This document shows positions 307 to 62,630 of a stretch of 64,000 bases of DNA, piece after piece (within the stretch, counting starts at the first letter, position 1; each line of letters starts with the position of its first letter). A program made the position numbers and the translations under genes. The stretch is from a bacterium (GTDB lineage: Bacteria; Hinthialibacterota; Hinthialibacteria; Hinthialibacterales; Hinthialibacteraceae). The notes under the pieces were generated by a model, which was not told the origin of the DNA, did no database searches, and saw only the letters and a program-made list of their open reading frames with translations. The stretch is from contig WGLV01000033.1 of the NCBI GenBank assembly GCA_016125385.1, positions 1 to 64,000 of the forward strand, written 5' to 3'.

Positions 307-616
307 TCTATTTCTCATCAGCATTCACCATCTTTTACGCATGCGATGATTCGCATTATATTCACAATCATAATCATGCGTCAATTCGGGATTTCACATT
401 CTTTTCCGCTTCGCCGCTCAACTCTTGTTTTTTCGTGACGATAAATAAATCGACGGACTGAATTGGCTGTAAACTATGCCTGTGGAACAGGGTTGAGCGA
501 CTATGGCTGGGGCCAGCGAACCGATTCGAACCATCACCCCCGGCGCGGACGACGCGCCGCGGGACATCGCCGTTGACGCGGATTCCAATCCGCCCGGCGG
601 CGGCGGGAGCCAGGAC

Positions 617-1801
617 ATGCCGTTGAAAAAACTCGCTCATATTCATCCACGCGGCGCCGGCGCCCCCGGCGAACTCGACCAGATCCCCGTATTCCGCCCC
701 TCGATCACGCAGGAAGAGATCGACGCGGTGACGGAGGTCATGCGTTCGGGCTGGCTCGGGCTGGGGCCGGTCACGGAAAAATTTGAAAACGAACTGGCCG
801 AGTTTCTCGGCGTGGATCACGTCATCGCGCTCAACTCAGGCACCGCCGCGCTGCATCTGGCGATCCGCCTGCTCGATCTCAACCCCGGCGACGAAGTCAT
901 CGTTCCTTCGATCACCTTTATCTCGACCGCCCACGCCGTCGAATATTGCGGCGCGCGGGCGGTGTTCGCCGACGTGTGCGAAGACACCCTCTGCATCAGC
1001 CCCGACGACGTCCGCCGCAAGATCACCAAAAAGACGCGCGCGATTCTGCCAGTGCATTACGGCGGTCACCCCGCCGACCTCGACGCGTTACGCGCGGCCA
1101 TCGCCGACAGACCCATCACCCTCGTCGAAGACGCGGCGCACGCCTGCGGCGCGTATTACAAGGGCAAGCGTGTGGGCGGCCTCTCGCCCATGACCTGCTT
1201 CTCGTTCCACGCGGTGAAAAACCTCACCTGCGGCGAAGGCGGCGCCATCTCGACTCACAACGCCGCCTGGGCGAAAAAACTGCGCGAGCTGCGCTGGATG
1301 GGCATCTCGAAAGACACCTACGAACGCACCGCCAAAGAAAGCGTCTACGCCTGGCAGTATTGGGTGCATGACCTGGGCTTCAAGTATCACATGCACGATC
1401 TGGCCGCCGCGATGGGCCGCGTGCAGCTGCGCCGCCTCGATGAAAACAACGCCAAACGCCGCCGCATCGCCGAGCGCTATAACGACGCCTTCAGCGGCGC
1501 CGCCTGGATCGAAACGCCGCCTGAACACGACGACGTCTTCTCCTCATGGCATATCTACCCGATCAAGACGCTGGAACGCGACCGCCTGATCGCCCACCTG
1601 AAGGCGAACGGAATCGCCCCCGGCGTACATTACTACCCGCTGCACATGCACCCGTATTACGCCGATCGCGGCGCCAAGTGCCCCATCGCCGAAGAGCTGT
1701 GGAAGCGCATGATCAGCCTGCCCATGTTCCCCGACATGAGCGACGCGCAGGTCGACCGCGTCATCCAGACCGTGCTGGCGTTCGACGCGGCCGGTTCGTA
1801 A
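617..1801 (+). CDS. DegT/DnrJ/EryC1/StrS family PLP-dependent aminotransferase
   Basis: A 394-residue sugar aminotransferase of the type that puts an amino group on nucleotide-linked keto-sugars. The PLP lysine is K201 in FSFHAVKNLTCGEGG, and the pyridine-binding Asp is in VEDAAHACG. The start at 617 has GGGAG seven bases upstream; an upstream ATG at 503 in the same frame would add 38 Gly/Pro/Asp-rich residues with no family similarity. The next gene is a GNAT acetyltransferase 18 bp away, so the pair resembles PseC/PseH-type or perosamine-type amino-sugar steps (inference). The substrate cannot be read from sequence. Confidence 0.9.
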   Translation: MPLKKLAHIHPRGAGAPGELDQIPVFRPSITQEEIDAVTEVMRSGWLGLGPVTEKFENELAEFLGVDHVIALNSGTAALHLAIRLLDLNPGDEVIVPSITFISTAHAVEYCGARAVFADVCEDTLCISPDDVRRKITKKTRAILPVHYGGHPADLDALRAAIADRPITLVEDAAHACGAYYKGKRVGGLSPMTCFSFHAVKNLTCGEGGAISTHNAAWAKKLRELRWMGISKDTYERTAKESVYAWQYWVHDLGFKYHMHDLAAAMGRVQLRRLDENNAKRRRIAERYNDAFSGAAWIETPPEHDDVFSSWHIYPIKTLERDRLIAHLKANGIAPGVHYYPLHMHPYYADRGAKCPIAEELWKRMISLPMFPDMSDAQVDRVIQTVLAFDAAGS

Positions 1802-1819: not shown

Positions 1820-2338
1820 ATGATCTGCGGAGAACGCGTCACCCTGCGCGCCCTGGAAGAACGCGACGTTGAACTGTTGCGCGGCTGGCGCAATCATCCC
1901 GAGTTGTTCGGACTGCATTTCGGCGTGCTGCCGCTCTCTCAGACCGAACAACGCCGCTGGTACGATTCATACAGCGGCCAGAGCGCGACAAAAGTATTCA
2001 TCATCGATAACGAAGAGGCCGAACCCGTCGGTTATACCCTGCTCAAGGATCTCGACCACAAAAACCGCCAGGCTGAGATCGGCATCCACCTCGATCCGCA
2101 CGCCCAGGGCCAGGGTTATGGCAAAGACGCCTTTCTCACCCTGATCCGCTTCTGTTTTCAAGAACTCAACCTGCATCGCGTCTACTTACAGGTCTTCGAC
2201 TTCAACGAGCGCGCCGCCGCGCTCTACCGCAAACTGGGTTTTGTGGAAGAAGGCCGCCTGCGTGAGTGTTTCTTCACTCAAAACGCCTACCATGACGTCA
2301 TCCAGATGTCGCTGCTCGAAAACGAATTCAAACGCTGA
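1820..2338 (+). CDS. GNAT family N-acetyltransferase (RimJ/RimL/PseH-like)
   Basis: A 172-residue acetyl-CoA-dependent N-acetyltransferase. The acetyl-CoA pyrophosphate loop is visible as HAQGQGYGKDA at about residues 94-104, followed by the family's NERAAALYRKLGF segment. This layout is shared by ribosomal-protein acetylases and by PseH-type enzymes that acetylate UDP-4-amino-sugars. Its position 18 bp after a DegT-type aminotransferase favours an amino-sugar substrate (inference from neighbourhood). The frame ends just before a terminator hairpin shared with the convergent gene. Confidence 0.85.
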   Translation: MICGERVTLRALEERDVELLRGWRNHPELFGLHFGVLPLSQTEQRRWYDSYSGQSATKVFIIDNEEAEPVGYTLLKDLDHKNRQAEIGIHLDPHAQGQGYGKDAFLTLIRFCFQELNLHRVYLQVFDFNERAAALYRKLGFVEEGRLRECFFTQNAYHDVIQMSLLENEFKR

Positions 2339-2420: not shown

Positions 2421-4238
2421 TCAGGGTCTGGAGCGCAGATACTCAGCCGGCACGCTGACGCCGGACGGGACGCGATACACCTCAACGCGATCGATAAAGA
2501 CGGTCACGTCGCCCGCGCTCCCGAGGTTGGCCGCCTGGAGGAGCGGGTCAATCGTCGCGCCCTGATCGGGCTCGTATAACACGGTTACCCAGCGGGCTTC
2601 GTCCTGCAAAAACGCCGTCGTCTGGGGAAAATTCAACCCGATAGAGCCATCGGCGGTTCCATTGAGAAAACCGCCGCGCACCGCGCCCACCGCCAGCGAC
2701 GCGGTGGAGCCGTCGGCGCGAACGCGCGCCCGGATAATCGCCGGGTCGCCGCCCGTGTCGATCGGCTGAGTGATGAACATAAACGCCACCTGCCCCGGCG
2801 AGATCAGCGCGGCGAAGCCCTTGCGGTCGAGCGTGCCAGGCATGAACGACTCCGTGAGAATGGTCGGCGCGAACAGCCCGGCCTCGGCGCCGCCGAAGCC
2901 GCCCGGCAGCTCAGTCCAGCCGTTGGCGGCGAGCGATGACTGGTCGAAATTATATTCCTTTAACAGGGTCACGCCCGCGCCCGCAGGTACGGTCGGGGTC
3001 GGCGTTTTCGCCGCAACGACGGTCGGCGTCGGAGTGGGCATCGATGGAGGCGTCGTCGGAGTCGAAGTCGCCGGAGCTAATGGAGTCGGGGACAATGTCG
3101 GGGTCGAAGTGGGGCGCGGCGTGGCGGTGGCCAGCGGGGTGGGCGTGTTGACCGGGCCGATCACCGGTGGCGTGTTGGTGGGCGTCGGCGTGACGGTCGG
3201 CGTCCGTGTGGCGGTAGGCTGAATCGGCGTCGAGGTGGGCCTGACGCCTGCCGGTCCGTGTTTAAACACGCGCACTGAACCGTTGCAAGCCAGGTAGACG
3301 TACCCATCAAAGGCGATCACATCCCATGCTTCTCGCGCCTGATCGTCGGAAAGGATCAGGTTGATATTCGACAGGTTCTCAAAGTCGTACACTCGCAGGC
3401 CGCCGTTAAAATCAAGAAACTGCCCTACGCCGGGGTCGTACAGCAGCGCCGCGTAACAGAAGCCCTCGCGCAGATCGACCGACCAGGTTTCGTTTTCGTG
3501 ACGGCCGAACTTGCTGACCACATGCACGGGATTATCGGGATCGGAAACGTCGAAGAAATCGATGCCGGTTACGCCCACCGCGATCGCCATCAGGTTTCCA
3601 TAAACCGATACGCCGTTGTTGAAATCAACGTCGTTGATAACGTTGAGAAATGATTTGATCCGCGTGGGATGAGCCGCGTCGCTGATGTCGAGAATCTGGA
3701 TATCGGAAGCCGTGGTGACGTACGCCCGATCGTTGACGATCTCGACGTCGGTTACATCATCGCCCGTGTTAAAAGAGCCCACCAATTCAATATTGGTTCC
3801 ACTCAGCGAGAGAATCAGAACACTGCGGTTTTCGCCGACATATAAATAATTTCCCACCGGCTTGACGAACGTGATGATGCCCGCGTCGGGAGTCCGGCGT
3901 TCGATGGGCGAGACTGACGAAGGATTGCTGACGTCAGCCACAAGAAGATTATTTTCACCGCTGCGGTCCATCCCGACCACTAAAATATTCCCCAGGTTGG
4001 CGAGGCCCGCCACCGGAAACGGCGTACTGAACGCGCCTGATACGCTGGGGTTGGCCGGATCGGCGATATTCAATATCGTCACCGAATCGGTTCCACCAAC
4101 GAACATTCTTGAACCGTCCAGATGAAGCGCCAGCGCCCCGACCGGCAGTTCTTTCACCGGCGAAATCGATTCCTGCGCCAGCACGGCGGAAGCGGCGATC
4201 GCCGCGAACCATAGTATTACCGCGAATTGTCTGATCAT
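2421..4238 (-). CDS. Secreted LVIVD-repeat beta-propeller protein with Thr/Pro-rich linker
   Basis: A 605-residue exported protein. Residues 1-21 are a signal peptide ending ASAVLA. Residues about 25-330 hold repeated blades of the LVIVD type (VTILNIADPANPSV, IQILDISDAAHPT, IDFFDVSDPDNPV), which fold as a beta-propeller in known families. Residues about 335-420 are a low-complexity TPTPT/NTPTP linker, seen in DNA as repeated GTCGGNGT units at about 2985-3240. A C-terminal domain of about 160 residues resembles a carbohydrate-binding or jelly-roll module (weak inference). No catalytic residues are recognised. It is probably a surface or periplasmic binding protein. Confidence 0.8.
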   Translation of the reverse strand: MIRQFAVILWFAAIAASAVLAQESISPVKELPVGALALHLDGSRMFVGGTDSVTILNIADPANPSVSGAFSTPFPVAGLANLGNILVVGMDRSGENNLLVADVSNPSSVSPIERRTPDAGIITFVKPVGNYLYVGENRSVLILSLSGTNIELVGSFNTGDDVTDVEIVNDRAYVTTASDIQILDISDAAHPTRIKSFLNVINDVDFNNGVSVYGNLMAIAVGVTGIDFFDVSDPDNPVHVVSKFGRHENETWSVDLREGFCYAALLYDPGVGQFLDFNGGLRVYDFENLSNINLILSDDQAREAWDVIAFDGYVYLACNGSVRVFKHGPAGVRPTSTPIQPTATRTPTVTPTPTNTPPVIGPVNTPTPLATATPRPTSTPTLSPTPLAPATSTPTTPPSMPTPTPTVVAAKTPTPTVPAGAGVTLLKEYNFDQSSLAANGWTELPGGFGGAEAGLFAPTILTESFMPGTLDRKGFAALISPGQVAFMFITQPIDTGGDPAIIRARVRADGSTASLAVGAVRGGFLNGTADGSIGLNFPQTTAFLQDEARWVTVLYEPDQGATIDPLLQAANLGSAGDVTVFIDRVEVYRVPSGVSVPAEYLRSRP

Positions 4239-4268: not shown

Positions 4269-4844
4269 TTATCGAGCGAGCACGTCTTGCGTCATTTTCA
4301 GAATTTGTTCGTAAGGCAGGTCCAGCTTGTCGCCTTTATTGATTCCATGCGATTCAAACCAGCCCTGATTCATCTCGAGCGCATACTGACATTGATACGT
4401 CGATCGGTAATGCGTTTCCGGATCGAACGGTCCGGTATGCGGCGTCATTTTCAACACGTCGCTGACGATTCCGTCCTGGCGGATGAAAGCGATAGAGAGT
4501 GGGATCCGGGTGTTTTTCATCCAGAACGACATGAAATGGGGTTCGGCGTATACGAACAGCATCCCGCGATTTTCTGGCAGGGCTTCCCGGTACATCAATC
4601 CCTGTTCCTGTTCGCGCTGAGTGATCGCGACTTCGAGCGTAACGCGTTCATAGGCGAGATCGACATCCAGCGTGCGCAACTCGCCCAGCGCGCCCTCTGG
4701 CGGAAAATCGGGATCGAGCGCAACCGGCTTTTCACACCCCGCCAGGCCCAGCGCGGCGGCGAACAAAACACAGACGGTCAGCTTCAAAGACCGGTTAACC
4801 AGCCGAATCAATCGCGCGGAGAATTTCGTGCGCGCGATGCGCAT
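4269..4844 (-). CDS. DUF192 family lipoprotein
   Basis: A 191-residue protein with a lipoprotein-like export signal (hydrophobic LTVCVLFAAALGLAGC, Cys as the lipid site) followed by a DUF192 (COG1430) domain: REQEQGLMYREALPENRGML and the hallmark FWMKNTRIPLSIAFI. The biochemical function of the family is not established. The start at 4844 puts the signal near the N terminus and leaves a 50-bp overlap with the 3' end of the upstream glycosyltransferase gene, so the two are probably co-transcribed. An ATG at 4907 would give a longer overlap and an unlikely leader. Confidence 0.85.
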   Translation of the reverse strand: MRIARTKFSARLIRLVNRSLKLTVCVLFAAALGLAGCEKPVALDPDFPPEGALGELRTLDVDLAYERVTLEVAITQREQEQGLMYREALPENRGMLFVYAEPHFMSFWMKNTRIPLSIAFIRQDGIVSDVLKMTPHTGPFDPETHYRSTYQCQYALEMNQGWFESHGINKGDKLDLPYEQILKMTQDVLAR

Positions 4845-6612
4845 AGGCGCATCGTTCAAACACGCGGCGCTGTCCAGCGCGGGCGATCGCTTCTCTTTCC
4901 CCATCATGGCTCAGATAATACTCCGTCAGTTCACGCAATTCGTCTTCGTTCCGATAACAGACCAGATGTTCACCCGGGATGAATTCATCTTCGATGGCGG
5001 GCCGGTACTCGGTCAGAAGAAAGCCGCCCGCCGCAAGCACGTCATAGACGCGCGGATTGGTGGAGTCGGCGCACTGCGCGTGAAACACATTCACGTTCAC
5101 CTTGGTATGATAATACACCGAAGGCAAATCTTCACGGTATTTCGGCGCGAAGCCGGCGTAACAGGGCGTGAGCTCACAAGCCCACTCCTCACGCCCCCAC
5201 TCCGGCGCACCGTAGGTTTTGAGACCCAGATCCACGACGCGCCGTAAAGCGTTAAGGCGTTTAAGGTAGGTTACACGCTCTTCGAGATACAGTGTGACAA
5301 AACCTTCATACGGCGGCCGTTCGTCTCCCGCCTCCGCGAGATAACGCGCCTCAAGCGTCACGCTCTCATCCGCCATGTACGCTTCGACCACGCCATCCAG
5401 CAGATCGACGAAAGCCGGATCGCGCTCCTGCCAGAATGCGCGGACGTCCTGATAACGCTGCACCGCCAGCGCGCCCATAAAGCCCACGTCCGGGCCCTCG
5501 CGGCGCGGCCAGTCTTTTTCAGGTTCGCATTCAGGCATTGGCTGAATTCCCGCGGCGGTGGGCAGATAGAGACAGGGTTTGCCGCTCAATTCACTTAAAT
5601 ACCCGACATAACTTTTATCGAACGAAAAAATCGCGTCGATGCCCGCCAGCTCTTCCCGCGTGGTTTTCACCCGCTTAGGGCTGTCGAGAAACCAGAGCGC
5701 CTTTTTGATCGGCAATGCGGAGAGCGTTTCAGCGCCTTCGGGAGACAACGTGTTGCGGTTCATCCACAACATCACGTCGGGAAAGTTTTCACGAGTATAT
5801 ACCAGCCACACGTAGGGGTTCAGAAAACTCACCAGGCGGGGATTCGCCTTGAACGACGCGGTCTCGCAGCCTTCCGCGATAAAGCCTTCGCTCATCGAAT
5901 CCGCCAGATAGTCGTGTTCCGGCTCGACGAACAGGACGCGCCGTTTATGCGCGGGATCGCCGCCCGCGCGGCGGTAATGCTGGTGAAGGTCGTTCAGGTA
6001 TTGCCGTGACGCCGCGAATATCTGATCGGCCATCGGAGGAAAACGCTGTTGCAGGTCGCCGATAATGTGCTGTTCTTCATTCGTCCACTCGACGCCGCAT
6101 AACACCGAGATCGGCGTCAACGCCGCGGACGGGTTGGTCTGAAAGAAATTCATGGCCGCATCGGCGGGAAAACGATCGATCGAGAGGATGACGCGGTCCG
6201 ACCGCAACAGATCGGTCCAGTCAAACAGCTCCAGACCCAGCCGCAAAAGGCCGGTGCGGTCTTCGATAATCAGCATCCGTTGCGCGAAGCGCCCCTTGCG
6301 CATCCGGGAATACAGTTCGAGCGGCAGATACCCCAGCCCGGGCCGGAGAACGACGAACAGCCGCTGTTCTTCCCAGCGGGCGTGATGGAGCGCCGATCGC
6401 GCCGTCAACCACGGATCGGCGGGCCCGTGCAGCCACCGCTCGCCATCGGGCGCATCCGCCTTGCAGGTCCATGCGCCGCCTTCCACGGCGGCAAGGCGAT
6501 AGCCGCTCACGCTGGAGGAGGCGTTTTGTAATATGGGAACGTATTGAGGGTAGAGCCGTTCGATCAGCGCCAGATTGCGCGCGAATGTTTCGTTGCGTTT
6601 CGACTCATTCAT
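4795..6612 (-). CDS. Maf-like N-terminal domain fused to CgeB-like glycosyltransferase
   Basis: A 605-residue cytoplasmic protein. Residues about 1-200 resemble the N-terminal part of Maf/DUF115 flagellin glycosyltransferases (NLALIERLYPQY, then a DP.TARSA segment and LFVVLRPGLGYLPLELYSRM followed by RMLIIED). Residues about 215-600 resemble CgeB/YkvP-type GT-B glycosyltransferases: KRRVLFVEPEHDYL, KKALWFLDSPKR, FSFDKSYVGYL and the donor-site NPRVYDVLAAGGFLLTEY. The start at 6612 has only a modest GAGAG site; upstream in-frame ATGs to 6789 would enter the divergent promoter region. With the aminotransferase/GNAT pair nearby it may glycosylate a surface protein such as flagellin (inference). 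Confidence 0.7.
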   Translation of the reverse strand: MNESKRNETFARNLALIERLYPQYVPILQNASSSVSGYRLAAVEGGAWTCKADAPDGERWLHGPADPWLTARSALHHARWEEQRLFVVLRPGLGYLPLELYSRMRKGRFAQRMLIIEDRTGLLRLGLELFDWTDLLRSDRVILSIDRFPADAAMNFFQTNPSAALTPISVLCGVEWTNEEQHIIGDLQQRFPPMADQIFAASRQYLNDLHQHYRRAGGDPAHKRRVLFVEPEHDYLADSMSEGFIAEGCETASFKANPRLVSFLNPYVWLVYTRENFPDVMLWMNRNTLSPEGAETLSALPIKKALWFLDSPKRVKTTREELAGIDAIFSFDKSYVGYLSELSGKPCLYLPTAAGIQPMPECEPEKDWPRREGPDVGFMGALAVQRYQDVRAFWQERDPAFVDLLDGVVEAYMADESVTLEARYLAEAGDERPPYEGFVTLYLEERVTYLKRLNALRRVVDLGLKTYGAPEWGREEWACELTPCYAGFAPKYREDLPSVYYHTKVNVNVFHAQCADSTNPRVYDVLAAGGFLLTEYRPAIEDEFIPGEHLVCYRNEDELRELTEYYLSHDGEREAIARAGQRRVFERCAYAHRAHEILRAIDSAG

Positions 6613-6748
6613 GGGCTCTCGATGGAACGCGGCGGCGGATGGGCAAAACGGCCCTCGCGCGCTATCTTGTATAGGTGACGCGGCCGGGCGAACCTTCAGC
6701 CCACGACCGGCGTTTTGCATCATATCACGAATCAAACAGGGAACGAAC

Positions 6749-7738
6749 GTGAAACGGTATCTGATCGCTCTGCTTTTGTGCCTGACCATCCCCGCGCTGG
6801 CCGCCGAGCCGCCAGCCAGCGGTTACCCCGTTACGGAATGTCAATCGCCCGCCGAGGTTCAACAGGCGCGCGCCCAGGGAGCGGTGTTGATCAAAACCGG
6901 AGGGCGCTATTTCGTGCGCATCGGCGCCGATTACAAAGGCCCTTACGCCAGCCTCGAAACCGCCGTCAAGCTGCGCAAGGATTACGAGGCGAAAGCAAAA
7001 GCATCCGGCATGATTCTCCCTACCACCGGCGCGGGGGAGGATGCGTCGATGAGCGGCGCGTATTTCAACCCCGAGCTGATGCTGTTTCCCTTTGTGGACT
7101 TCAAGCCGAAAGAAGGCATGTATTTCACCGCGCCCGAGAACACGGTGGTGAAGACCTCGCAAGTCATGATTCATCCCGAGCCATTTCTGTTCGACTCGGT
7201 TTCGTTCGGCCGCATCGTTTTGCCCGTACCCGGTTCACGTCCGGCGGGCGCGCCCGTCAGCCCCACTCAGGCGTTGGACCCGCGCGTACGCATGCAGGGC
7301 AAGCCCTATTTCGCCGTAGCGGGCAACGTCGCGGCCAAGGCGAGCGTCGCATGGCCCTCCGGCGTGGAGATGTGGGTGGGCGCCGCCGTCATCGACAACA
7401 ACGGCGACACGCTCTGGCGTCAGTACGGGCCGGTCGACGCCCAGCGCGTCTTCAAGTGCATCGCCCCCATGCCCACGGCGCCCGGCCCCGCCGCCTTTCT
7501 GACGCTGTTCACCTGTGCGAAAGGGAGCATCCCTCAAACCATGCGCCCCAGCGCAAGTTTTCCGTCGATCGATTCAGCCACGTATGAGTACCACATTCTC
7601 TGTTCGGCTGGACTGGAAATGGGGGCGGACTGGTTTCCACCTATCGATCAGGCGACGCAGGAGGAATTCAACTCGATGCAGCAGGAACAGATGAAACAAC
7701 GCCAGGAGCGCCTCAAAGAGATCGAATCGCGGAAGTAA
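6749..7738 (+). CDS. Secreted protein of unknown function
   Basis: A 329-residue protein that begins with GTG after AGGGA six bases upstream and carries a clean signal peptide (VKRYLIALLLCLTIPALAA). Residues about 28-80 could be an SPOR-like small domain (ECQSPAEVQQARAQGAVLIK, then GRYFVRIGADYKGPY), but this is weak. The remainder holds no family I recognise; the C terminus is Gln/Glu/Lys-rich (MQQEQMKQRQERLKEIE) and probably helical. It is divergent from the glycosyltransferase gene with about 136 bp for two promoters. Confidence 0.75.
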   Translation: MKRYLIALLLCLTIPALAAEPPASGYPVTECQSPAEVQQARAQGAVLIKTGGRYFVRIGADYKGPYASLETAVKLRKDYEAKAKASGMILPTTGAGEDASMSGAYFNPELMLFPFVDFKPKEGMYFTAPENTVVKTSQVMIHPEPFLFDSVSFGRIVLPVPGSRPAGAPVSPTQALDPRVRMQGKPYFAVAGNVAAKASVAWPSGVEMWVGAAVIDNNGDTLWRQYGPVDAQRVFKCIAPMPTAPGPAAFLTLFTCAKGSIPQTMRPSASFPSIDSATYEYHILCSAGLEMGADWFPPIDQATQEEFNSMQQEQMKQRQERLKEIESRK

Positions 7739-36797: not shown

Positions 36798-36831
36798 GGT
36801 TCCCTGAGCCTGCTCACCACATCAGGGAACC
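36798..36831. terminator. Hairpin between convergent genes, overlapping the bshC stop codon
   Basis: GGTTCCCTGA (36798-36807) pairs perfectly with TCAGGGAACC (36822-36831) around a 14-base loop. The stop codon of bshC on the minus strand is at 36822-36824 inside the stem. The U-runs on both sides are weak, so termination strength is uncertain. Confidence 0.55.
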
Positions 36832-38444
36832 AGCACGCAGGCATGCGCCCCCGCCGGCAGCGTCTCCAGCAGCGAAACCAGTTCACCAAACATCGCGGGG
36901 CCGTATTTCAGAAAGAGCGTAACGACTCCGTGGCAGCGTTCCTGCGGGGAATGTTCGGGCGCCAGCGCGGCCTGAACCGCTTCGATCTGTTCGCGCGCCT
37001 GGCTCTCCTTATCAGCCTGACGGCGCAATAGCAGGTTTTCGCTGTTTTCAATTTCTTTTTCAATTTTGCCGATGTTTTTTTCGAGCGGTTTGACGATGGT
37101 CGGGTCCGCTTCATTCGCGGCGGCTCGCAGGCTTTCAGCCCACTGGCGTAACGCCGCCCGCAGAGGCTCCGCATCGGGCGCGGCGCCCCGCTCTCCCACG
37201 ATCCGCTTGAGCAACGCGGCGGGATCACGCCCCAGATCGTCGAACGCGAGGTTGTATTTTTCGATGGCGCGGCGGTCGCGCGATTCGATCAGCGTCAGCC
37301 CCGTGCGAGGCGCCAGGGCTGGACGTTCGACGCCGTGGCGGCGATACAATCCGTCGAGCAGAAAATGATACGCGGTCTCGCCAGGCCCCAGCACGGATGC
37401 GGCGACGGGCAGAATCGCGTCCTGAACCACCGGCCGCAGAATAGCGGAAGGTGAAAACGCTCCGGGGGTTTGTTCGAGAAGATTCATCATCGTTTCCGCT
37501 TCAACGGCGCCATCGCCGGTTTCGAAACGCCCCTCGCGAAAATAAACCGCCAACCGGCGCGAATCGCGAATCAGAAAAAACGAGGTGCGGTCTTCGGCTT
37601 TGTGTAACTGCGGTTCCAGCCCGGCCTCTCGCACCCGTTCGGCGGCGGCTTCGACCTCCCGCGACGCGGCGGACGGTTCCCGCAACTCGCGGCGCATGAT
37701 CGGAACGGCGGCGCGGCGCATGAAGCCGTCTTCAGGCCTGAAGATCAGCAATCCTTCGTCCGCGAACAGCGTCCACAGCAGCGCGTCGAACGCGTCGGGA
37801 TACGGCGCTGCGCTGCTTGCGCATTCGCGGATCGTTTCCAGCAGCGGCGCCTTCCATTCGGAAGGATGCGTGCTTTGATCCAGTGAGCCGGTCAGATCGC
37901 CGAGCGGGAAATCAGCGGCGGGGATCGTGTACAGCGGTTGGCGGTCGTGTTCACGCGGCCAGGTATACGTCACCGGCGCACGGTCTTTCGACAGCCAGTG
38001 AATGCTTGCGATCTCCTCAAAATCATGGTCTTCGGAGGCGGTCCAGAATGCGGGAAGAAACACGCCGCGTCCCTCGTTCGTCCAGCGCCGGGCCAGCGCG
38101 ATCGCCTGCGCCGCCTTGTAAACGGTCAGCAGCGGCCCGCCCATCGCGCCGGGCTGCTGCCCCGCGATGACCAGCATGACGCCGGGCTCGCGCAGACGAT
38201 CCACGGCCTCCAGCGCCGAGGCGGGGGCGCGGCGGCGGCGCATGGATTCACTCAGTCCATCGGCCAGCGCGGCGCGATCGATCGAAGCGTCCGCGTAACG
38301 GCGCCGCGCGGCGATCGCGTCATCCAACCGGCTCATCGACGGCGGAGCGAGTTCGCGCAACGCCTCGGGCGGCTCGAGCAGCGCTTTATAATAAGGATAA
38401 ACCGACTCCGCCCTACGAAGCGGCCAGTTCGAATACAATTCCAT
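36822..38444 (-). CDS. bshC: Bacillithiol biosynthesis cysteine-adding enzyme BshC
   Basis: A 540-residue cytoplasmic enzyme that adds cysteine to glucosaminyl-malate in bacillithiol synthesis. The family signatures VIAGQQPGAMGGPLLTVYKA and FWTASEDHDFEEIASIHWL are clear, followed by the long helical and coiled-coil C-terminal part (IEKEIENSENLLLRRQADK). Length is normal. BshA and BshB are not in the window. It is divergent from the RlmI-like gene with only 17 bp between start codons, so the promoters must overlap coding DNA. Confidence 0.93.
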   Translation of the reverse strand: MELYSNWPLRRAESVYPYYKALLEPPEALRELAPPSMSRLDDAIAARRRYADASIDRAALADGLSESMRRRRAPASALEAVDRLREPGVMLVIAGQQPGAMGGPLLTVYKAAQAIALARRWTNEGRGVFLPAFWTASEDHDFEEIASIHWLSKDRAPVTYTWPREHDRQPLYTIPAADFPLGDLTGSLDQSTHPSEWKAPLLETIRECASSAAPYPDAFDALLWTLFADEGLLIFRPEDGFMRRAAVPIMRRELREPSAASREVEAAAERVREAGLEPQLHKAEDRTSFFLIRDSRRLAVYFREGRFETGDGAVEAETMMNLLEQTPGAFSPSAILRPVVQDAILPVAASVLGPGETAYHFLLDGLYRRHGVERPALAPRTGLTLIESRDRRAIEKYNLAFDDLGRDPAALLKRIVGERGAAPDAEPLRAALRQWAESLRAAANEADPTIVKPLEKNIGKIEKEIENSENLLLRRQADKESQAREQIEAVQAALAPEHSPQERCHGVVTLFLKYGPAMFGELVSLLETLPAGAHACVLVP

Positions 38445-55552: not shown

Positions 55553-56071
55553 ATGGCGGACGCACCCGAACAGCAAGAAGGGCAACAGGAGGAGCGGCCT
55601 AAAAGTAAATTGCCCTTTATAATCGCGGGATTCGTCGTGCTTCTCGCGGTGGTGGGCGGCGTAGCGTACATGCTGCTGGGTGGAAGCGGCTCCGACGAAG
55701 CCACGGTGATTGAAACCAGCGAAGAGCCGGGTTACATGCACACCTTCAAGGATCCGTTCGTCGGCAACCTGGCCCCGCCGGACGATCAATACATGTACAC
55801 CGCGTACGTCACGCTGGAGATTGTGCCGCGCGGCAAGGCGACTGAAGCGGAAGCGTTACAGGAAATCGGCGTTGGCGAGACCGACAGCACCAAAAATCTG
55901 ATGCCGCTGGTGATGCAGATTATTACCGACGAACTCGCGTCAAAGACGCGCGTTGAACTCACCAGCCTGGCCGGGCGCGAAAACATCCGCGCCATTATTA
56001 AAAACAAATTGAATCTGGCTCTGCGTAAGGCGGAGATTAAAGAAGTTTACCTTCGAACTTTAGTCAACTGA
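55553..56071 (+). CDS. fliL: Flagellar basal body-associated protein FliL
   Basis: A 172-residue inner-membrane protein with a charged cytoplasmic N terminus, one membrane helix (FIIAGFVVLLAVVGGVAYML, about 22-41) and a periplasmic FliL domain (DPFVGNLAPPDDQYMYTAYV, then IITDELASKTRVELTSLAGR). FliL surrounds the stator and supports torque. It is first in the operon, ahead of fliM. Confidence 0.9.
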   Translation: MADAPEQQEGQQEERPKSKLPFIIAGFVVLLAVVGGVAYMLLGGSGSDEATVIETSEEPGYMHTFKDPFVGNLAPPDDQYMYTAYVTLEIVPRGKATEAEALQEIGVGETDSTKNLMPLVMQIITDELASKTRVELTSLAGRENIRAIIKNKLNLALRKAEIKEVYLRTLVN

Positions 56072-56099
56072 CCGATGGGTTGGTTGAGGGGCGTCAGAA

Positions 56100-57098
56100 A
56101 TGGCGGACATACTGTCGCAAAACGAAATTGACGCGTTGCTGTCCGCGTTCGCCACCGGCGAAAGCGGGCCCGATCTGGGCGGCGACGACGGAGACGATCA
56201 GGTAAGAGAGGTTAAAGTCTATGACTTTAACCACCCCGACCGATTCTCCAAAGATCAGATTCGCACCATGCACAACCTGCATGATCATTTCGCGCGAATC
56301 TTCTCTATTTCTCTGTCCGCGTTTTTGCGAACCATCGTCGAGGTCAAACTCGTTTCCGTCGACCAGATCTCGTATGAAGAGTTCATCCGCTCGATTCCCA
56401 ACCCGACCTCGCTCAACATCATCAACATGGACCCGCTGGAAGGCAAGGCGCTGATCGAGCTCTCGCCGACGCTGTCGTTCCCCGTCGTGGACCGGCTGAT
56501 GGGCGGCGCGGGCAACGTGTTCAAAAAGAACCGCGAACTCACCGAGATCGAGCAGACCATCATCGAAAAAGTGTTGTACCGGGCGTTCGACTGTCTGCAT
56601 GAAGCCTGGGCGAATGTGCTTCCACTGAACCTTTCGCTCGAACAATCCGAAACCAATCCCCAGTTGCTGATGCAACTGTATCTGCCCTCGGAAATGGTCA
56701 TTCTGATGACGTTCGAAGTCACCATGGGCGACATTTCCGGCACGCTGTCATTCTGCATCCCTTATCCGACGCTTGAACCCATCGCGGGTCAATTGTCCAG
56801 TTCATCCTGGTTCGCCGCATCGAAAAAAGAGCTGTCCGAAGAACACGCCGAGGTATTATACGACCGGCTCAAACGCGTTCAGATTCCCATCGTCGCATAC
56901 ATTGGTTCCGCGACGATGAGTATGAGCGATCTGCTGGGTCTCAGCGAAGGCGACGTCGTTCAGCTCAACAACCGGACCGACGACGATTTTGTGTTGCAGA
57001 TTGGAACCGAACACCGCTATTTCGCCAAACCCGGCATTCACCGCGGCCATAACGCCGTACAGATCACCAAGATCATCACCGGGCCGGACGACGTTTAA
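56100..57098 (+). CDS. fliM: Flagellar motor switch protein FliM
   Basis: A 332-residue C-ring protein. The CheY-binding motif LSQNEIDALLSAF is at residues 5-17. The middle CheC-like domain (DHFARIFSISLSAFLRTIVE) joins FliG and other FliM copies, and the C-terminal SpoA domain begins near residue 255 (KRVQIPIVAYIGSATMSMSD). GAGGGG precedes the ATG. It lies between fliL and fliY. Confidence 0.97.
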   Translation: MADILSQNEIDALLSAFATGESGPDLGGDDGDDQVREVKVYDFNHPDRFSKDQIRTMHNLHDHFARIFSISLSAFLRTIVEVKLVSVDQISYEEFIRSIPNPTSLNIINMDPLEGKALIELSPTLSFPVVDRLMGGAGNVFKKNRELTEIEQTIIEKVLYRAFDCLHEAWANVLPLNLSLEQSETNPQLLMQLYLPSEMVILMTFEVTMGDISGTLSFCIPYPTLEPIAGQLSSSSWFAASKKELSEEHAEVLYDRLKRVQIPIVAYIGSATMSMSDLLGLSEGDVVQLNNRTDDDFVLQIGTEHRYFAKPGIHRGHNAVQITKIITGPDDV

Positions 57099-57119
57099 GA
57101 CGAACGCAAGGAACCAGGC

Positions 57120-58190
57120 ATGGCTGAAGCGTTAACTCAGGCTGAAATAGACGCGCTGCTCAGGGGCGAAGCCCCGCCGCCGCCCGCGGAAGATTCCGGC
57201 GGGCCGTCGACGCTTACGCCCGATGAAGAAGACGCGATCAAGATCATTCAGAAATTCATGTCCGAGGCGGGGGGAGACGTGTTTTCAACCCTGCTCGGCC
57301 ATGAATCGTCCATGACGGCCGGCGACTTTCAGGAAGTGGACGCGGCGGGCATCGCCGGTCAGCTCTACGGCGACATGGTTCTGGCCCAGATCAACTATAA
57401 AGGGTACGTACAAGGCCAGAGCGATCTTGTTTTCACCTTGGAAGACGCCGCAAAAATCGCCACCCAGATGACCGGCGGCGGAACGGAATCGGAATTCGGC
57501 GACCTGGAAGAAAGCGCGCTCGCCGAAGCCGTGCAATCAGTCTACAGCTCGGTCAACACAAAACTGGCTCAACGCGCCGGCGGCGAGATTCAACTCGATT
57601 CGCCCGACGTCTACACCAAGCCGCAAGACATCGTCGAGTTGTTGCCTGAAAGCCCCAGCAAGCACATTCTGATTCCATATCAGATGGAAGGCCCTTCGAT
57701 CAGCGGCACGGTTTACCAGGTGGTTCCTCGCAACCTGCTGCAATCGATCGCCAACGCGCTGGGCGGCGGCCCGTCTCCTCATCAGGACGAAGAGAGTTTT
57801 ATGCCGCGCGGCGCCAGCGGAGCGCCCGAGATTCTGTCTCAGCCAGCCCAGTTCATGCCCAGCATGGGCGGTATGGGCGGCGGCCAGGGTATGGGCATGA
57901 TGGATTTCGGCGGCGGCCCATCGGTCGACACCCGCAACCTCGAACTGATTCTCGATATCAAACTCGAGATCAAGGTCGAGCTGGGCCGCACCAAGCGCAA
58001 GATTCGCGACGTCCTTGAACTGGGCCCCGGCTCGGTCATTGAACTCGATAAACTCGCCGGCGAGCCGGTTGATATCCTGGTGAATGACAAACTGTTCGCC
58101 AAAGGCGAAGTGGTCGTCATCGACGAAAACTTCGGCGTGCGCATCACCGACATCCTGACCATTCAAGAGCGCATTGAAGCCTTGAAATAA
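57120..58190 (+). CDS. fliY: FliY-type flagellar motor switch protein (CheC-like plus FliN domain)
   Basis: A 356-residue protein. The N terminus has a second FliM-like motif, LTQAEIDALLRGE. Residues about 40-215 are CheC-like, but the two E-x2-N phosphatase patterns are missing: the helices read AIKIIQKFMSEAGGD and ESALAEAVQSVYSS. A Gly/Met-rich linker (about 245-265) precedes the FliN SpoA domain (LDIKLEIKVELGRTKRKIRD, FAKGEVVVIDENFGVRITDI). It should form the outer C-ring and may bind CheY-P without dephosphorylating it. Confidence 0.88.
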   Translation: MAEALTQAEIDALLRGEAPPPPAEDSGGPSTLTPDEEDAIKIIQKFMSEAGGDVFSTLLGHESSMTAGDFQEVDAAGIAGQLYGDMVLAQINYKGYVQGQSDLVFTLEDAAKIATQMTGGGTESEFGDLEESALAEAVQSVYSSVNTKLAQRAGGEIQLDSPDVYTKPQDIVELLPESPSKHILIPYQMEGPSISGTVYQVVPRNLLQSIANALGGGPSPHQDEESFMPRGASGAPEILSQPAQFMPSMGGMGGGQGMGMMDFGGGPSVDTRNLELILDIKLEIKVELGRTKRKIRDVLELGPGSVIELDKLAGEPVDILVNDKLFAKGEVVVIDENFGVRITDILTIQERIEALK

Positions 58191-58228
58191 CAACCGCGCG
58201 GCTTGATCGGCGCGGTGGAGACGGGCGC

Positions 58229-58651
58229 ATGAGCGAACGATCCGATTTGAAACTGATCGACCTGTTGTCGCTCAAACCGGGCGCGTTGCTTCAGATGCAC
58301 TCGGTTCGCGGGCAGGCGGAATGCGCCCAGCGCGAACGGATCACCACACGCGAGGCTTGGCGCAGCGAAGTTTCAAACGCGGTGATCCCCGCGGGAACCG
58401 CTCGGAACAAGGAAAACCTGTCTCAGTTGCTCGACGTTCCCATCGCGGCGCAGGTGATCGTCCGTCATGGCGACGGCAAGGTGCTGGAAATCTTGCGTCT
58501 GACCGCGAATAACTGGGACGCCCTGCTCAAACGCGAAGGGCATCAGGTCGACCTGATGGTCGACGGCCGTATTCTGGCGAGCGGCCAGGTAGTCAATAAC
58601 GAAGATGAATGCGGCGTTCGCATCGAACGCCTCGCCGGAAACCCGGATTGA
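58229..58651 (+). CDS. Second FliN-like SpoA-domain protein
   Basis: A 140-residue protein. Its C-terminal half is a divergent SpoA domain (LLDVPIAAQVIVRHGDGKVL, then VDLMVDGRILASGQVVNNED), like FliN. The N-terminal 70 residues have no clear similarity. The gene sits between fliY and fliO, exactly where fliN lies in many flagellar operons, so it is probably a second C-ring subunit or an export-dock partner of FliH. Confidence 0.8.
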   Translation: MSERSDLKLIDLLSLKPGALLQMHSVRGQAECAQRERITTREAWRSEVSNAVIPAGTARNKENLSQLLDVPIAAQVIVRHGDGKVLEILRLTANNWDALLKREGHQVDLMVDGRILASGQVVNNEDECGVRIERLAGNPD

Positions 58652-58737
58652 TTTTTCACGCCTGACGGTTTCGTTCGGGCGATATTCTTTTGGTTGAGGG
58701 AAGCCGGACGCCATTGGCGCTCCGGCATCATGGATCA

Positions 58738-59514
58738 ATGATCGGTATCTGGTTCGCGCGCAAGCGGGCGCTCATCCCGTTTTGCGTAGCCGTCCCGCTT
58801 GTCTTCGCCACGCTCGCATGGAGCGCCGAGCCCAAGGCGTCCATGCCCGCGCCCCCCGCGATCGGCGATGAAAGCCCCCTCGCCACGGCGAGCGCTTCAG
58901 CCGTCGAACACGCCTCTGACGCGTCGTTCGCCCGCCACGCCGTCGATCAAACGCTGGCGGCGATTCAAAACGCGATGAAGGGCGGCGGCGCAAGCCCCAC
59001 GCTCGGCGGCGATCCCTCTCCCCAGTTAATCAGCCAGACCGAAGGCCAATCGACCGCGCAGATGATCGGGCGCATGCTGGTCAGCCTGGCGCTGGTGATT
59101 TCGCTGGGCCTGACTCTCGCCTGGGCGGCGAAAAAATTCGTCATCAAAAAACACACGTTGGGCGGCGGCCGCATTGAACTGCTCGGTTCCTACGCCGTTT
59201 CAGCCAAGTCGAAAGTCCACCTCATCCGAGTTGGACGCGAACATTTTCTGGTCGGCGAAGGCGGCAACGCCCTGACGCTGATATCCGCGGTGGACGCGCC
59301 GGATGGCGCCGGCGCGCACGAATTACCCGAATATGAACCGGCGCCGCCCATTTATGACGATGCGCAGGAGGTAACGCCTTTTCAGGACCGCCTCTCTGAA
59401 TGGAAAGACCGCCTTGAAGGCCGCAATCTCAGCGATGAAGTCAAAACTCACCTGATGATGCTGCAGGGCCTGTCGCAACGCCTCAAAAGCAAGGGAGGCG
59501 AGAACGATGGCTAG
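58738..59514 (+). CDS. fliO: Flagellar biosynthetic protein FliO
   Basis: A 258-residue membrane protein. A signal-like helix at the N terminus is followed by an Ala/Pro/Ser-rich periplasmic stretch, a membrane helix (about 108-130, MLVSLALVISLGLTLAWAAK) and the FliO domain (GRIELLGSYAVSAKSKVHLI). It assists assembly of the FliP ring. The start at 58738 lacks a good ribosome site; it overlaps fliP by 8 bases at its end. Confidence 0.82.
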   Translation: MIGIWFARKRALIPFCVAVPLVFATLAWSAEPKASMPAPPAIGDESPLATASASAVEHASDASFARHAVDQTLAAIQNAMKGGGASPTLGGDPSPQLISQTEGQSTAQMIGRMLVSLALVISLGLTLAWAAKKFVIKKHTLGGGRIELLGSYAVSAKSKVHLIRVGREHFLVGEGGNALTLISAVDAPDGAGAHELPEYEPAPPIYDDAQEVTPFQDRLSEWKDRLEGRNLSDEVKTHLMMLQGLSQRLKSKGGENDG

Positions 59515-60358
59515 GCGGATCGCACGGCTGTGGCCCTGGCTGCTGGTGATTGGCGCGGTGTTTTTCTTCGCGGCGTCCGCTCACGCCCAGCAGCAGCCCG
59601 TTCTGCCCGACTTCGGTCTCGGCTCGGACGAAGGGCCTCATCCCGACGACGTCACCATCGCGTTGCAGATTCTTTTCGGGCTCACCATTCTTTCGCTGTT
59701 GCCCAGCATTCTGGTGATGACCACTTCGTTCATCCGCATTTCGATCGTGCTCGGTTTCGTGCGCCGCGCCATCGGCACTCAGCAGACGCCCTCCAATGAA
59801 ATCATCATCGGCCTCTCGCTCTTCATGACGTTTTACATCATGACGCCGGTGTTTCAGGACATGTACAACGACGCCCTGCAACCCTACCTGAGCGGAGAAA
59901 TGAAATCGCTGCAACCCGGCGATGAAGATCCGTTCGGTCGCCGCGTGGAAGAACACATCCCCAAGTTTTACGTCATGCTGATGCACGCCATCATTCCACT
60001 TCGGACGTTCATGTTCGAACAGATCGGCATCCCCGGCTCAAACGACGTCGCGGTATTGATGTCGATGGCGGGCATGGACAGCCCCAACGGGCCCAACGAC
60101 GTGCCTACTCACGTCCTGATTCCCGCGTTCATGATCAGCGAATTAAAAAAAGCCTTCATGATGGGCTTCATGATATTCATTCCATTTCTGATTCTGGATC
60201 TGGTCACATCATCCGTATTGATTTCGATGGGCATGTTTCAGTTGCCGCCCGCGTTCATCTCGCTTCCATTCAAGATTCTGCTTTTCGTCCTGGTGGATGG
60301 ATGGAGCGTACTGGTCAGAGCGCTGGGCGTCTCGTTCATGCAGAACATGCACTATTGA
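59507..60358 (+). CDS. fliP: Flagellar biosynthetic protein FliP
   Basis: A 283-residue core subunit of the export gate. A cleavable signal peptide ends near AHAQ, followed by the FliP family segments LTILSLLPSILVMTTSFIRI and the long AFMMGFMIFIPFLILDLVTS. GGGAGG precedes the ATG. It overlaps fliO and lies ahead of fliQ. Confidence 0.97.
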   Translation: MARRIARLWPWLLVIGAVFFFAASAHAQQQPVLPDFGLGSDEGPHPDDVTIALQILFGLTILSLLPSILVMTTSFIRISIVLGFVRRAIGTQQTPSNEIIIGLSLFMTFYIMTPVFQDMYNDALQPYLSGEMKSLQPGDEDPFGRRVEEHIPKFYVMLMHAIIPLRTFMFEQIGIPGSNDVAVLMSMAGMDSPNGPNDVPTHVLIPAFMISELKKAFMMGFMIFIPFLILDLVTSSVLISMGMFQLPPAFISLPFKILLFVLVDGWSVLVRALGVSFMQNMHY

Positions 60359-60392
60359 CGGATGAGCCCCTGGGCGAAGAAGGAACGTAGTT

Positions 60393-60671
60393 ATGACGGA
60401 AGAATACGTAATCAAACTGGGCGTCGAGATGATGTTCAACGCATTGGTCATCAGCTTGCCGTTGCTCGGCATCGGCTTGATCGTGGGCGTGATGATCAGC
60501 GTGTTTCAGGCCGCCACCCAGATTAACGAACAGACGTTGACCATCGTGCCCAAGCTGCTGGTGGTCGGCTTGACGGTCATGCTGCTCATGCCCTGGCTGG
60601 TCGAGCGCGTACTCGATCTCGCCTTGCGGCTGTTTAACGATCTGCCCAAGGTGGCGCGAAGCGTACAATGA
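60393..60671 (+). CDS. fliQ: Flagellar biosynthetic protein FliQ
   Basis: A 92-residue protein with two membrane helices and the family pattern GLIVGVMISVFQAATQINEQ, which forms part of the FliPQR export gate. AAGGA precedes the ATG. It overlaps fliR by four bases (ATGA). Confidence 0.96.
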   Translation: MTEEYVIKLGVEMMFNALVISLPLLGIGLIVGVMISVFQAATQINEQTLTIVPKLLVVGLTVMLLMPWLVERVLDLALRLFNDLPKVARSVQ

Positions 60672-61519
60672 CGATTTTGCCCGAACCGTGGGAGACGCAT
60701 TTTCTCACGTTCTTTTTCGTGTATGTACGGGTATCGGCGGCGTTGTGGAACACGCCGGTCATCAGCAATGACACCGTCCCCAGCCCGATTCGCGCGGGGC
60801 TGGCGTTTTGGGTGTCGGTGATCATTCTCGGCCCCATCTGGGGGCTGCACAGCGCGCCGCCCGACCATGTGATACCGATCGTGACCAATGATTACGACGG
60901 CATCGTCTCGTTTTCGCTCGCGGTGGCGGCGGAGGTTCTGATCGGATGGCTGCTCGGGTTCATCGCCGAAATGCTGGTACAGACCATCTCGCTTTCCGGC
61001 GAGATCATCGGACAGCAGGCGGGGTTTTCAGCCGCGTCGGTGTTCGACCCCATCACGGGTCAGGACATCTTTCTGGTGGCGCAGATCAAGACGCTTTTCG
61101 GCACCATGATCTTCTTCGCCATCGGCGGTCCTGAGACGGTGTTGCAGGTATTGGGAGACAGCTTCAGGCTGCTTCACCCCGGCGAGTTCATCAATCTGGC
61201 CGATTTCGCCAACGCCGGGTATCACACGCTGATTCTGAACGAAAGCCGCCAGCAAGCTCTGACGCTGATTCTGTACCGGGTGGGAATCCAGATCGCGGCG
61301 CCGATCATGACCACCATGTTTCTGGTCAGCCTGGCGGAAGCGTTCATCGCGAAGGTCTCGCCGCAGCTCAACATTCTCGCGGTGGGCTTCGCCATCCGGA
61401 TATTCATCAGCCTGGTGGTGCTTGCGAGCGCCATGCCGACCACCATGCTGGCGTACAAGCATCACCTGCAACGGTATACAACGTACGCTTACGCCGCGTT
61501 GAGCTGGTTGACGCCGTAG
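60668..61519 (+). CDS. fliR: Flagellar biosynthetic protein FliR
   Basis: A 283-residue polytopic export gate subunit. Family signatures include RVSAALWNTPVISNDTVPSP, GEIIGQQAGFSAASVFDPIT and the C-terminal FAIRIFISLVVLASAMPTTM. Length is usual. It overlaps fliQ at its start and precedes flhB by 28 bp. Confidence 0.96.
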   Translation: MTILPEPWETHFLTFFFVYVRVSAALWNTPVISNDTVPSPIRAGLAFWVSVIILGPIWGLHSAPPDHVIPIVTNDYDGIVSFSLAVAAEVLIGWLLGFIAEMLVQTISLSGEIIGQQAGFSAASVFDPITGQDIFLVAQIKTLFGTMIFFAIGGPETVLQVLGDSFRLLHPGEFINLADFANAGYHTLILNESRQQALTLILYRVGIQIAAPIMTTMFLVSLAEAFIAKVSPQLNILAVGFAIRIFISLVVLASAMPTTMLAYKHHLQRYTTYAYAALSWLTP

Positions 61520-61547
61520 ACGCGCTCTCTGAACGAAAGGCTTTGAC

Positions 61548-62630
61548 ATGGCTGAGAATGAAAACGGCCAGGAAAAGACGGAACAGCCCACCGGGCGGCG
61601 CATGCAGAAAGCCCGGGAAGAGGGCAACGTCCCCAAAAGCACCGAGATGAACAACGCGGTCATGCTCATGGCCGGCGTCACGACGTTTTATTACTTCGGG
61701 ATATATTTCGTAAGAGGAGTCGAGGATTGCATCGAGTATTTTTTCAACCTGTCCGCCACCTTCGTGATCAGCGAAGACAGTTATCACACGCTGATGCTGA
61801 ACGCGGGTACGCGGGTGCTGTATATTCTCGCGCCGTTTCTACTGATTTTCGTTCTGACGGCGATCGGGATCAACGTCGCCCAGGTGGGTTTCATGCTTAC
61901 CGGCGAGAGGCTCAAGCCCAATCTCGACAAACTCAACCCCGTCAAGGGGATCCAGAATCTGTTCAACACCCGCAGCCGGGTCGAACTGATCAAGTCGTGC
62001 GTAAAAATCTTCTTCATCACGCCGGTCATGATTTTCATCATCTACAAACGCATGCCCGAACTGATGAATCTGCCGCTGGAAGAGAATCTCGACATTCTCG
62101 AACACGTTGGCTGGAAAGCGCTGGAGGTCTCCGTTTACGCGCTGATCATCATGATGATTCTGGCGATTATCGACATGATCTATCAGCGCTGGCAGAACGT
62201 TCAGGACCTAAAGATGACGAAAGAAGAAGTCAAGCAGGAGATGAAAGACATGCAGGGCGATCCGCAGATCAAAAGCCGGATCCGCTCGATTCAGCAGGAA
62301 ATGGCGCGCAAGCGCATGATGGAGGAAGTACCCGAAGCGGAAGTGGTGGTGACCAACCCCACTGAATACGCGGTCGCGCTGAAATATGAGAGCGGCGACA
62401 TGGCGGCGCCCAAGGTCATCGCAAAAGGGCGCAACCACCTGGCGAAACGAATCCGCGAAATCGCCGTGGCCAACAACGTTCCCATCGTAGAGAACCGGCC
62501 GCTGGCGCAATCGCTATGGAAACTGGTCGATGTGGGGCAGTTCATTCCACCCGACTTTTATCAGGCGGTCGCCGAAGTTCTGGCTTACGTCTATCGCCTG
62601 ACGAAAAAGGCGAAGCAATATCAGGATTGA
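61548..62630 (+). CDS. flhB: Flagellar export switch protein FlhB, NPTE variant
   Basis: A 360-residue protein. Four membrane helices (about 33-210) follow the family opening KTEQPTGRRMQKAREEGNVP. The cytoplasmic domain has the autocleavage region VVVTNPTEYAVALKYESG, where the usual NPTH is NPTE (N270-P-T-E273). The codon GAA is unambiguous in the sequence. Cleavage at N-P normally switches export from hook to filament subunits; the effect of Glu here is untested. AAAGG lies before the ATG. Confidence 0.95.
   Translation: MAENENGQEKTEQPTGRRMQKAREEGNVPKSTEMNNAVMLMAGVTTFYYFGIYFVRGVEDCIEYFFNLSATFVISEDSYHTLMLNAGTRVLYILAPFLLIFVLTAIGINVAQVGFMLTGERLKPNLDKLNPVKGIQNLFNTRSRVELIKSCVKIFFITPVMIFIIYKRMPELMNLPLEENLDILEHVGWKALEVSVYALIIMMILAIIDMIYQRWQNVQDLKMTKEEVKQEMKDMQGDPQIKSRIRSIQQEMARKRMMEEVPEAEVVVTNPTEYAVALKYESGDMAAPKVIAKGRNHLAKRIREIAVANNVPIVENRPLAQSLWKLVDVGQFIPPDFYQAVAEVLAYVYRLTKKAKQYQD

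Follow-up and report, generated by a model that had tools for sequence, protein, structure and literature searches.

P0001, a 605-residue glycosyltransferase encoded in the window (the whole stretch of DNA that was analysed, 64,000 nucleotides), carries the N-terminal domain of Maf flagellin glycosyltransferases in front of a CgeB-like catalytic domain of GT-B type. This domain swap, which an earlier note had proposed from the sequence, is real and well supported, and the Maf-N/CgeB fusion is a widespread variant that is not peculiar to the window's genome. Coordinates of the gene, its domains and its neighbours are given in Table 1.

A Maf N-terminal domain joined to a GT-B catalytic domain

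The frame encoding P0001 is open on the minus strand, from 6612 to 4795, while stops are present in frame on the plus strand of the same interval. A longer frame of 664 aa, reaching position 6789, also exists; the orthologs begin close to the ATG at 6612, the start chosen in the earlier note. Matches to P0001 were detected in 9 of the 14 phylum genomes examined, its own included, with five orthologs from the same family at 56-60% identity and three from the same order at 45%. In the assembled sequence of one ortholog (genome G004; locus L010 on contig G004:C124), a single TAG interrupts the frame within the N-terminal part. We rejected the idea that P0001 is a lone chimera or an artefact of assembly, because eight other phylum genomes have orthologs and loci outside the phylum carry fusions. 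Used alone, P0001 gave no NCBIfam match over cut-off (two weak matches, E 0.049 and 0.2), no phmmer match among PDB sequences at E 1, and no relatives in a search of genome contigs.

Profile comparisons were made with alignments of eight orthologs (A1), 29 CgeB-like proteins including P0001 (A2) and 27 real Maf proteins from the same phylum (A3), and with a profile of the N-terminal parts alone (A4). All 27 members of A3 matched both the MptE-like and Maf_flag10_N families in Pfam. When A2 was compared to A3, the alignment was confined to residues 2-174 of P0001 (Prob 99.4, E 1e-21), and the orthologs in A1 alone also matched A3 (Prob 98.5, E 1.7e-15). Comparison of the N-terminal profile with the Maf N-terminal profile in hhalign gave Prob 99.9 and E 4.5e-34, while all 12 control runs gave Prob 0.6 or below (N-terminal part against Maf C-terminal part, CgeB C-terminal part against Maf N-terminal part, the two C-terminal parts against each other, the reversed N-terminal part, and eight column shuffles). 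In an hmmsearch of PDB sequences with A4, the best match was the Magnetospirillum Maf 5mu5 (E 0.0014); up to E 5, there was one other match, at E 1.6. The claim that the first 200 or so residues resemble the N-terminal region of Maf was thus borne out.

Stock family models were less sensitive. A Pfam search of P0001 alone gave nothing significant in the first 200 residues and did not reach the Maf_flag10_N model (PF20157). At E 0.1, 12 of the 29 A2 members matched this model, and no other Pfam family was detected in the N-terminal part of more than two of the 29. The G004 ortholog scored 19 bits against a cut-off of 23.5, or 26.6 bits only with neighbouring in-frame matches added. When the N-domain profiles were run against 4131 ORFs from 193 loci at E 1e-4, they matched Maf or CgeB-like ORFs with three exceptions (a contig-edge fragment and a 308-aa frame present twice), a count that includes the profiles' own members and comes from a non-random sample, since the loci had been selected by their content of Maf, CgeB or flagellin. 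The 308-aa frame (L049 and L068, contig G001:C1) encodes a Maf N-terminal domain and adjoins an MptE-like frame; an assembly frameshift may have divided one Maf into the two.

The AlphaFold model of whole P0001 had a mean pLDDT of 92.8. In a fold search with the whole protein, the GT-B part filled the results and 5mu5 was not among the matches listed. Because the GT-B part dominated this search, residues 1-215 were folded alone (mean pLDDT 92.2). The resulting model begins with two helices, continues with a small sheet of three strands (residues 38-62) and a four-stranded core (strands 85-89, 112-117, 141-145 and 168-172), and closes with a long helix. With this model, 5mu5 ranked first in Foldseek (E 4e-6) as the sole match under E 0.001, and the VIA-align superposition gave Z 15.2 with an rmsd of 3.6 over 194 of 215 residues, so that the comparison with Magnetospirillum Maf suggested in the earlier note agrees with the profiles. 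The runner-up was a methyltransferase with Z 9.1. Positions in the domain that are common to Maf include N13, P22, H62, P67, G92, L93, G94, E117 and D131. A generic Rossmann domain was considered as an explanation and rejected because 5mu5 led the next fold by 6 Z units, no rival Pfam family was detected and the profile controls were empty. In the accessible part of PMC11339370, the Maf N-terminal domain is described as Rossmann-like but degenerate, with a weak resemblance to methyltransferases, and its function as unclear; the model agrees with this description.

For the catalytic part, residues 221-605 aligned to PimA (2gej) with Z 22.5 and an rmsd of 3.7 over 301 residues in VIA-align and have a GT-B fold, the class to which GT4-type enzymes such as PimA belong. 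Pfam detected Glyco_trans_1_2 in all 29 members of A2. DUF3880 (PF12996), a family of the N-terminal half of the GT-B part in CgeB-like enzymes, was found at E 0.1 in 10 of the 29, P0001 not being one of them. The MptE-like family (PF01973) had no match in P0001 at E 1 or among the 29 A2 members at E 0.1, and the CgeB C-terminal profile did not match the Maf C-terminal part in hhalign (Prob 0.1). These data confirm that the catalytic part is CgeB-like and not the DUF115/MptE-like core of Maf, as had been proposed.

Table 1. Features of the P0001 locus in the window, with the evidence for each
Feature	Coordinates	Strand	Evidence
Gene for the 605-aa Maf-N/CgeB-like glycosyltransferase (P0001)	4795..6612	-	Translation, Pfam, orthologs
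Maf N-terminal domain, residues 1-215, Rossmann-like, long helix 178-214 at its end	5968..6612	-	Model, 5mu5 fold match, hhalign, hmmsearch
GT-B catalytic domain, residues 221-605	4798..5952	-	VIA-align Z up to 22.5 to GT4-type enzymes
Glyco_trans_1_2 (PF13524), residues 454-598, C-terminal half of the GT-B domain	4819..5253	-	Pfam E 2e-27
DUF192 protein, directly downstream of P0001	4269..4907	-	Pfam PF02643 E 2.8e-32; conserved neighbour
LVIVD-repeat protein with long Thr/Pro-rich linker	2421..4238	-	Pfam LVIVD E 7e-9; conserved neighbour, candidate rival substrate
Divergently transcribed protein, secreted by eye	6746..7738	+	Conserved neighbour, 4/5 same-family genomes
PseC-like aminotransferase (DegT family)	503..1801	+	NCBIfam TIGR03588 351 bits, below cut-off 423.5
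PseH-like GNAT acetyltransferase	1820..2338	+	TIGR03585 79.1 bits, below cut-off 93.1

Distribution and evolution of the fusion

A profile search of genome contigs with A2 returned 139 relatives, of which the best 80 were used. Eighteen of these (L086-L103) come from entries submitted under the name Candidatus Omnitrophota and are taken as relatives of the window. The remaining 62 loci (L104-L165) are labelled otherwise than the window's phylum, about eight of them without a named group, and 33 of the 62 contain at least one fused ORF. With ORFs called at E 1e-4 for the N-terminal and 1e-15 for the C-terminal profile, the 62 loci hold 44 fused ORFs (median 588 aa) and 54 unfused ORFs (median 403.5 aa), although 12 unfused ORFs over 520 aa may hide a divergent N-terminal region. 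Within the phylum, the label "fused" in the trees described below is partly by construction because the N-terminal profile was built from A2. By record title, the groups represented in these trees are Thermodesulfobacteriota, Nitrospirota, Myxococcota (which stands for 'Deltaproteobacteria' MAGs), Calditrichota, Zixiibacteriota and Bacillota, among others. Phage records gave one weak C-terminal match and nothing else.

Ten fused proteins from outside the phylum were scanned with Pfam, and all ten matched both Glyco_trans_1_2 and DUF3880. Maf_flag10_N was over its cut-off in five, just below it in two and without a match in three; a further fused protein, from L111, was over the cut-off. NCBIfam gave no match at E 0.01 for seven fused relatives. 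The earlier note had called the arrangement a new architecture. Our literature search, which left most subscription journals outside its scope, returned no paper on it among the matches listed; the fusion is nevertheless widespread, and since stock Pfam models detect it in half of the ten outside proteins, the combination is probably already listed in domain databases.

A tree of the N-terminal domain with 114 rows required four changes between fused proteins and Maf. A reduced tree of 94 rows, from which 20 rows with long branches or at least 260 residues were dropped (including that of P0001 itself and L009, with seven P0001 orthologs remaining), also required four, and a topology placing all fusions in one clade against Maf was not rejected (p-AU 0.851). 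In the catalytic-domain tree, fused and unfused rows were mixed, with 14 changes, which is an overcount because some "unfused" ORFs are cut by contig ends. Two histories are possible: either the fusion arose once, long ago, and was then lost in places, or domains were exchanged repeatedly.

Fused genes occur as pairs in the same order in seven loci (L111, L127, L130, L135, L146, L153 and L154). In the N-domain tree, the first and second copies belong to different clades at all seven loci. The catalytic tree separates them likewise at six, the second copy of L130 being absent from it. This separation suggests that the paired fusions carry out two sequential sugar-transfer steps.

Flagellar genes and the neighbourhood of P0001

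Several relatives of P0001 are encoded close to flagellins. Paralogs lie 0.7 kb from a large flagellin in G009, with FlaG between them, and in G008, with a small gene in between. In a Desulfobacca MAG (L111), the order is flagellin, FliD, FliS, a GT2 glycosyltransferase with TPR, fusion, GT9, fusion. In Thermincola, a Polysacc_synt_2 gene and a DegT gene stand between a Maf and the fusion. Within the fetched DNA, 3 of the 33 fusion loci contain a flagellin and 6 others a Maf, compared to 4 and 0 of the 29 loci with unfused genes alone. The N-terminal domain is therefore not needed for an association with flagellin, because unfused CgeB-like genes too occur near flagellins. Records in which they do so belong to Neomarinimicrobiota, Lachnospiraceae, Calditrichota and Acetatifactor (L134, L143, L156 and L158).

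Flagellin was present in all ten genomes of a hand-picked set, and it lay within about 10 kb of the fusion in six, three of which (L111, L145 and L148) had been chosen because a flagellin had already been seen nearby; in one of the six, G021, a partial flagellin lies at the end of a contig. PF01973 had no match at E 0.001 in nine of the ten, although most are MAGs, so an absent Maf may reflect absent sequence, and the set omits 'Deltaproteobacteria' MAG loci with a Maf beside the fusion (L117, L124, L150, L160 and L162). Thermincola was the sole hand-picked genome with an MptE-like Maf. When matches were paired by contig, strand and frame, 12 of the 13 Maf_flag10_N matches in these genomes fell in CgeB-like frames and one in a Maf.

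In the window's phylum, MptE-like and flagellin matches were detected in all 14 genomes, and a listed CgeB-like match lay within 10 kb of a listed flagellin in two of the nine genomes with relatives. The window's genome has seven Flagellin_N matches. Across nine genomes of its family and order (G000 and G002-G009), Maf is strongly expanded, with 7 to 11 MptE-like matches per genome; there are 4 to 9 Flagellin_N matches in each, and the flagellins are mostly very long frames of about 800-960 aa. The earlier note also assigned the fusion to protein glycosylation. Flagellin, FliD and FliS neighbourhoods support that assignment for the family; for P0001 itself, which has no flagellin gene beside it, it is a proposal.

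In the window, a flagellar motor and export cluster lies about 50 kb from P0001. It occupies 55553-62630 on the plus strand and includes FliL, FliM, a FliN-type protein, FliP, Bac_export_1 (FliR-type) and FlhB by Pfam, which also detected CheA and CheB, as well as BshC of bacillithiol biosynthesis (36822-38444, minus strand). The immediate neighbours of P0001 are of another kind. Genes for a DUF192 protein and an LVIVD-repeat protein adjoin its ortholog in all five same-family genomes. The DUF192 ORF overlaps that of the glycosyltransferase, so its true start may lie further in. The LVIVD protein has a start that looks signal-peptide-like by eye, and its orthologs in all five genomes keep a 60-residue stretch with 39-43 Thr, Pro or Ser; among the listed non-overlapping ORFs of the window, it alone reaches at least 40 Thr plus Pro per 60 residues, the next having 17. 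The three orthologs from the same order (L186-L188) were searched for this block without a match, and in L188, the one same-order locus scanned, a sulfatase-like gene follows instead. The PseC-like and PseH-like genes lie at the contig start and end 2.5 kb from P0001. The former is the top of 10 PseC matches in the genome, and at E 1e-10 its model also finds matches in 11 of 14 control genomes; the latter scored 80.6 bits against a spermidine acetyltransferase model whose cut-off is 218.

Proposed function and comparison with known systems

We infer that P0001 is, with fair probability, a protein O-glycosyltransferase of the flagellin type in which acceptor handling falls to the Maf domain and the chemistry to the GT-B domain. 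The enzyme would act in the cytoplasm as two modules. A nucleotide sugar would bind to the GT-B module, in the cleft that separates its two Rossmann halves, and the sugar would then be transferred, while the Maf domain would engage flagellin, or an exported substrate resembling it, ahead of export. Compared to the MptE-like core of Maf, the GT-B half would supply a different sugar or chemistry. The two domains, their separate relationships, the spread of the fusion and the flagellin neighbourhoods of some relatives are observations; what we infer in this scheme is the acceptor, the donor, the site in the cell and docking by the N-terminal domain. For P0001, the acceptor could be one of the genome's flagellins or the conserved Thr/Pro-rich neighbour.

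The distance to the flagellar export genes, the lack of an adjacent flagellin and the low number of phylum genomes with such proximity (two of nine) count against the flagellin-type reading, and the conserved neighbours of P0001 include a candidate for another substrate. The LVIVD protein, or other Thr/Pro-rich exported proteins, would then be the acceptor of a dedicated non-flagellar O-glycosyltransferase, in keeping with the retention of the gene block and its Thr/Pro/Ser-rich stretch in all five same-family relatives and with a Thr/Pro richness unmatched among the listed ORFs of the window. We consider this unlikely: the block was not detected next to the same-order orthologs, related fusions lie in flagellar clusters, and conservation of the linker may have another cause. 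A role in the synthesis of a surface polysaccharide or lipid-linked glycan, with the Maf-like domain an old structural appendage, also seems improbable. Fused genes occur near flagellin in several phyla, and the N-domain profiles matched, bar the three exceptions, Maf or CgeB-like ORFs alone in the fetched loci, which argues against such a role; on the other side are the unfused CgeB-like paralogs of four phylum genomes (L006 and L030-L032) and two papers on the outer-core locus of Acinetobacter lipooligosaccharide in which both family names, Glyco_trans_1_2 and DUF3880, are used (PMC10327509 and PMC4172580).

Another alternative concerns the N-terminal domain itself, which could be a nucleotide- or SAM-binding module and not a docking domain, with a ligand that could control or complete glycosylation. 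As in methyltransferases, the first core strand of the N-terminal domain is followed by a GxGLGY loop and the second ends in an acidic residue. The folds listed after 5mu5 were mainly SAM-dependent methyltransferases and spermidine synthases (Z 7.3-9.1). Glycines 90, 92 and 94 and Glu 117 are conserved in 100, 100, 98 and 98% of 42 outside fusions and in 97, 94, 88 and 100% of 33 Maf rows. However, Z scores of 7-9 are within the range given by common arrangements, and position 90 is Arg in P0001 and in 68% of 28 rows from its phylum, so the loop is degenerate in this lineage. Ligand binding in place of docking is, in our judgement, quite doubtful.

We tentatively propose, as a possibility short of an even chance, that protein glycosyltransferases recognize their acceptors through the Maf N-terminal domain, a portable module that has been mounted on two catalytic folds unrelated to each other. 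The flagellin O-glycosyltransferase of many Desulfobacterota, Nitrospirota and Calditrichota might then be a Maf-N/CgeB pair and not Maf, while the window's lineage would have kept and expanded both kinds. The same domain on another fold near flagellin in several phyla separates it from Maf chemistry and amounts to a natural experiment, in which the feature common to both enzyme classes should be the job of the N-terminal domain. For genomes with glycosyltransferase genes beside flagellin but no Maf, the fusion would be a likely class of flagellin glycosyltransferase.

Compared to known systems, P0001 shares its N-terminal domain with Maf (PF20157 plus PF01973; 5mu5) by profile, sequence and fold, and the two are of similar total length; Maf has an MptE-like core, whereas that of P0001 is GT-B/CgeB-like without a PF01973 match. 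Both kinds are present in the window's genome. Maf enzymes transfer nonulosonic acid to flagellin, and the PseC-like and PseH-like genes near P0001 score below the cut-offs of their models. With CgeB/YkvP-like proteins (PF13524 and DUF3880), P0001 shares the catalytic domain, including the conserved NPRVYDVLA-GGFLLTEY region, whereas the unfused members found here have no N-terminal domain and, for the most part, a length of about 390-415 aa. FlmG of Caulobacter is a flagellin O-glycosyltransferase that modifies flagellin in the cytoplasm and, like P0001, has an N-terminal domain ahead of a GT-B domain (PMC7591256, accessible part). The domains themselves differ, as FlmG binds flagellin by a TPR domain according to the same source and that of P0001 is a Rossmann-like Maf domain; Pfam gave no TPR family for P0001. 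The docking role proposed for the Maf domain is drawn by analogy with this TPR domain. As the N-terminal domain of FlmG is required and sufficient to bind flagellin, FlmG, as described in that part of PMC7591256, provides an experimental precedent for a plan that combines an acceptor domain with a GT-B enzyme.
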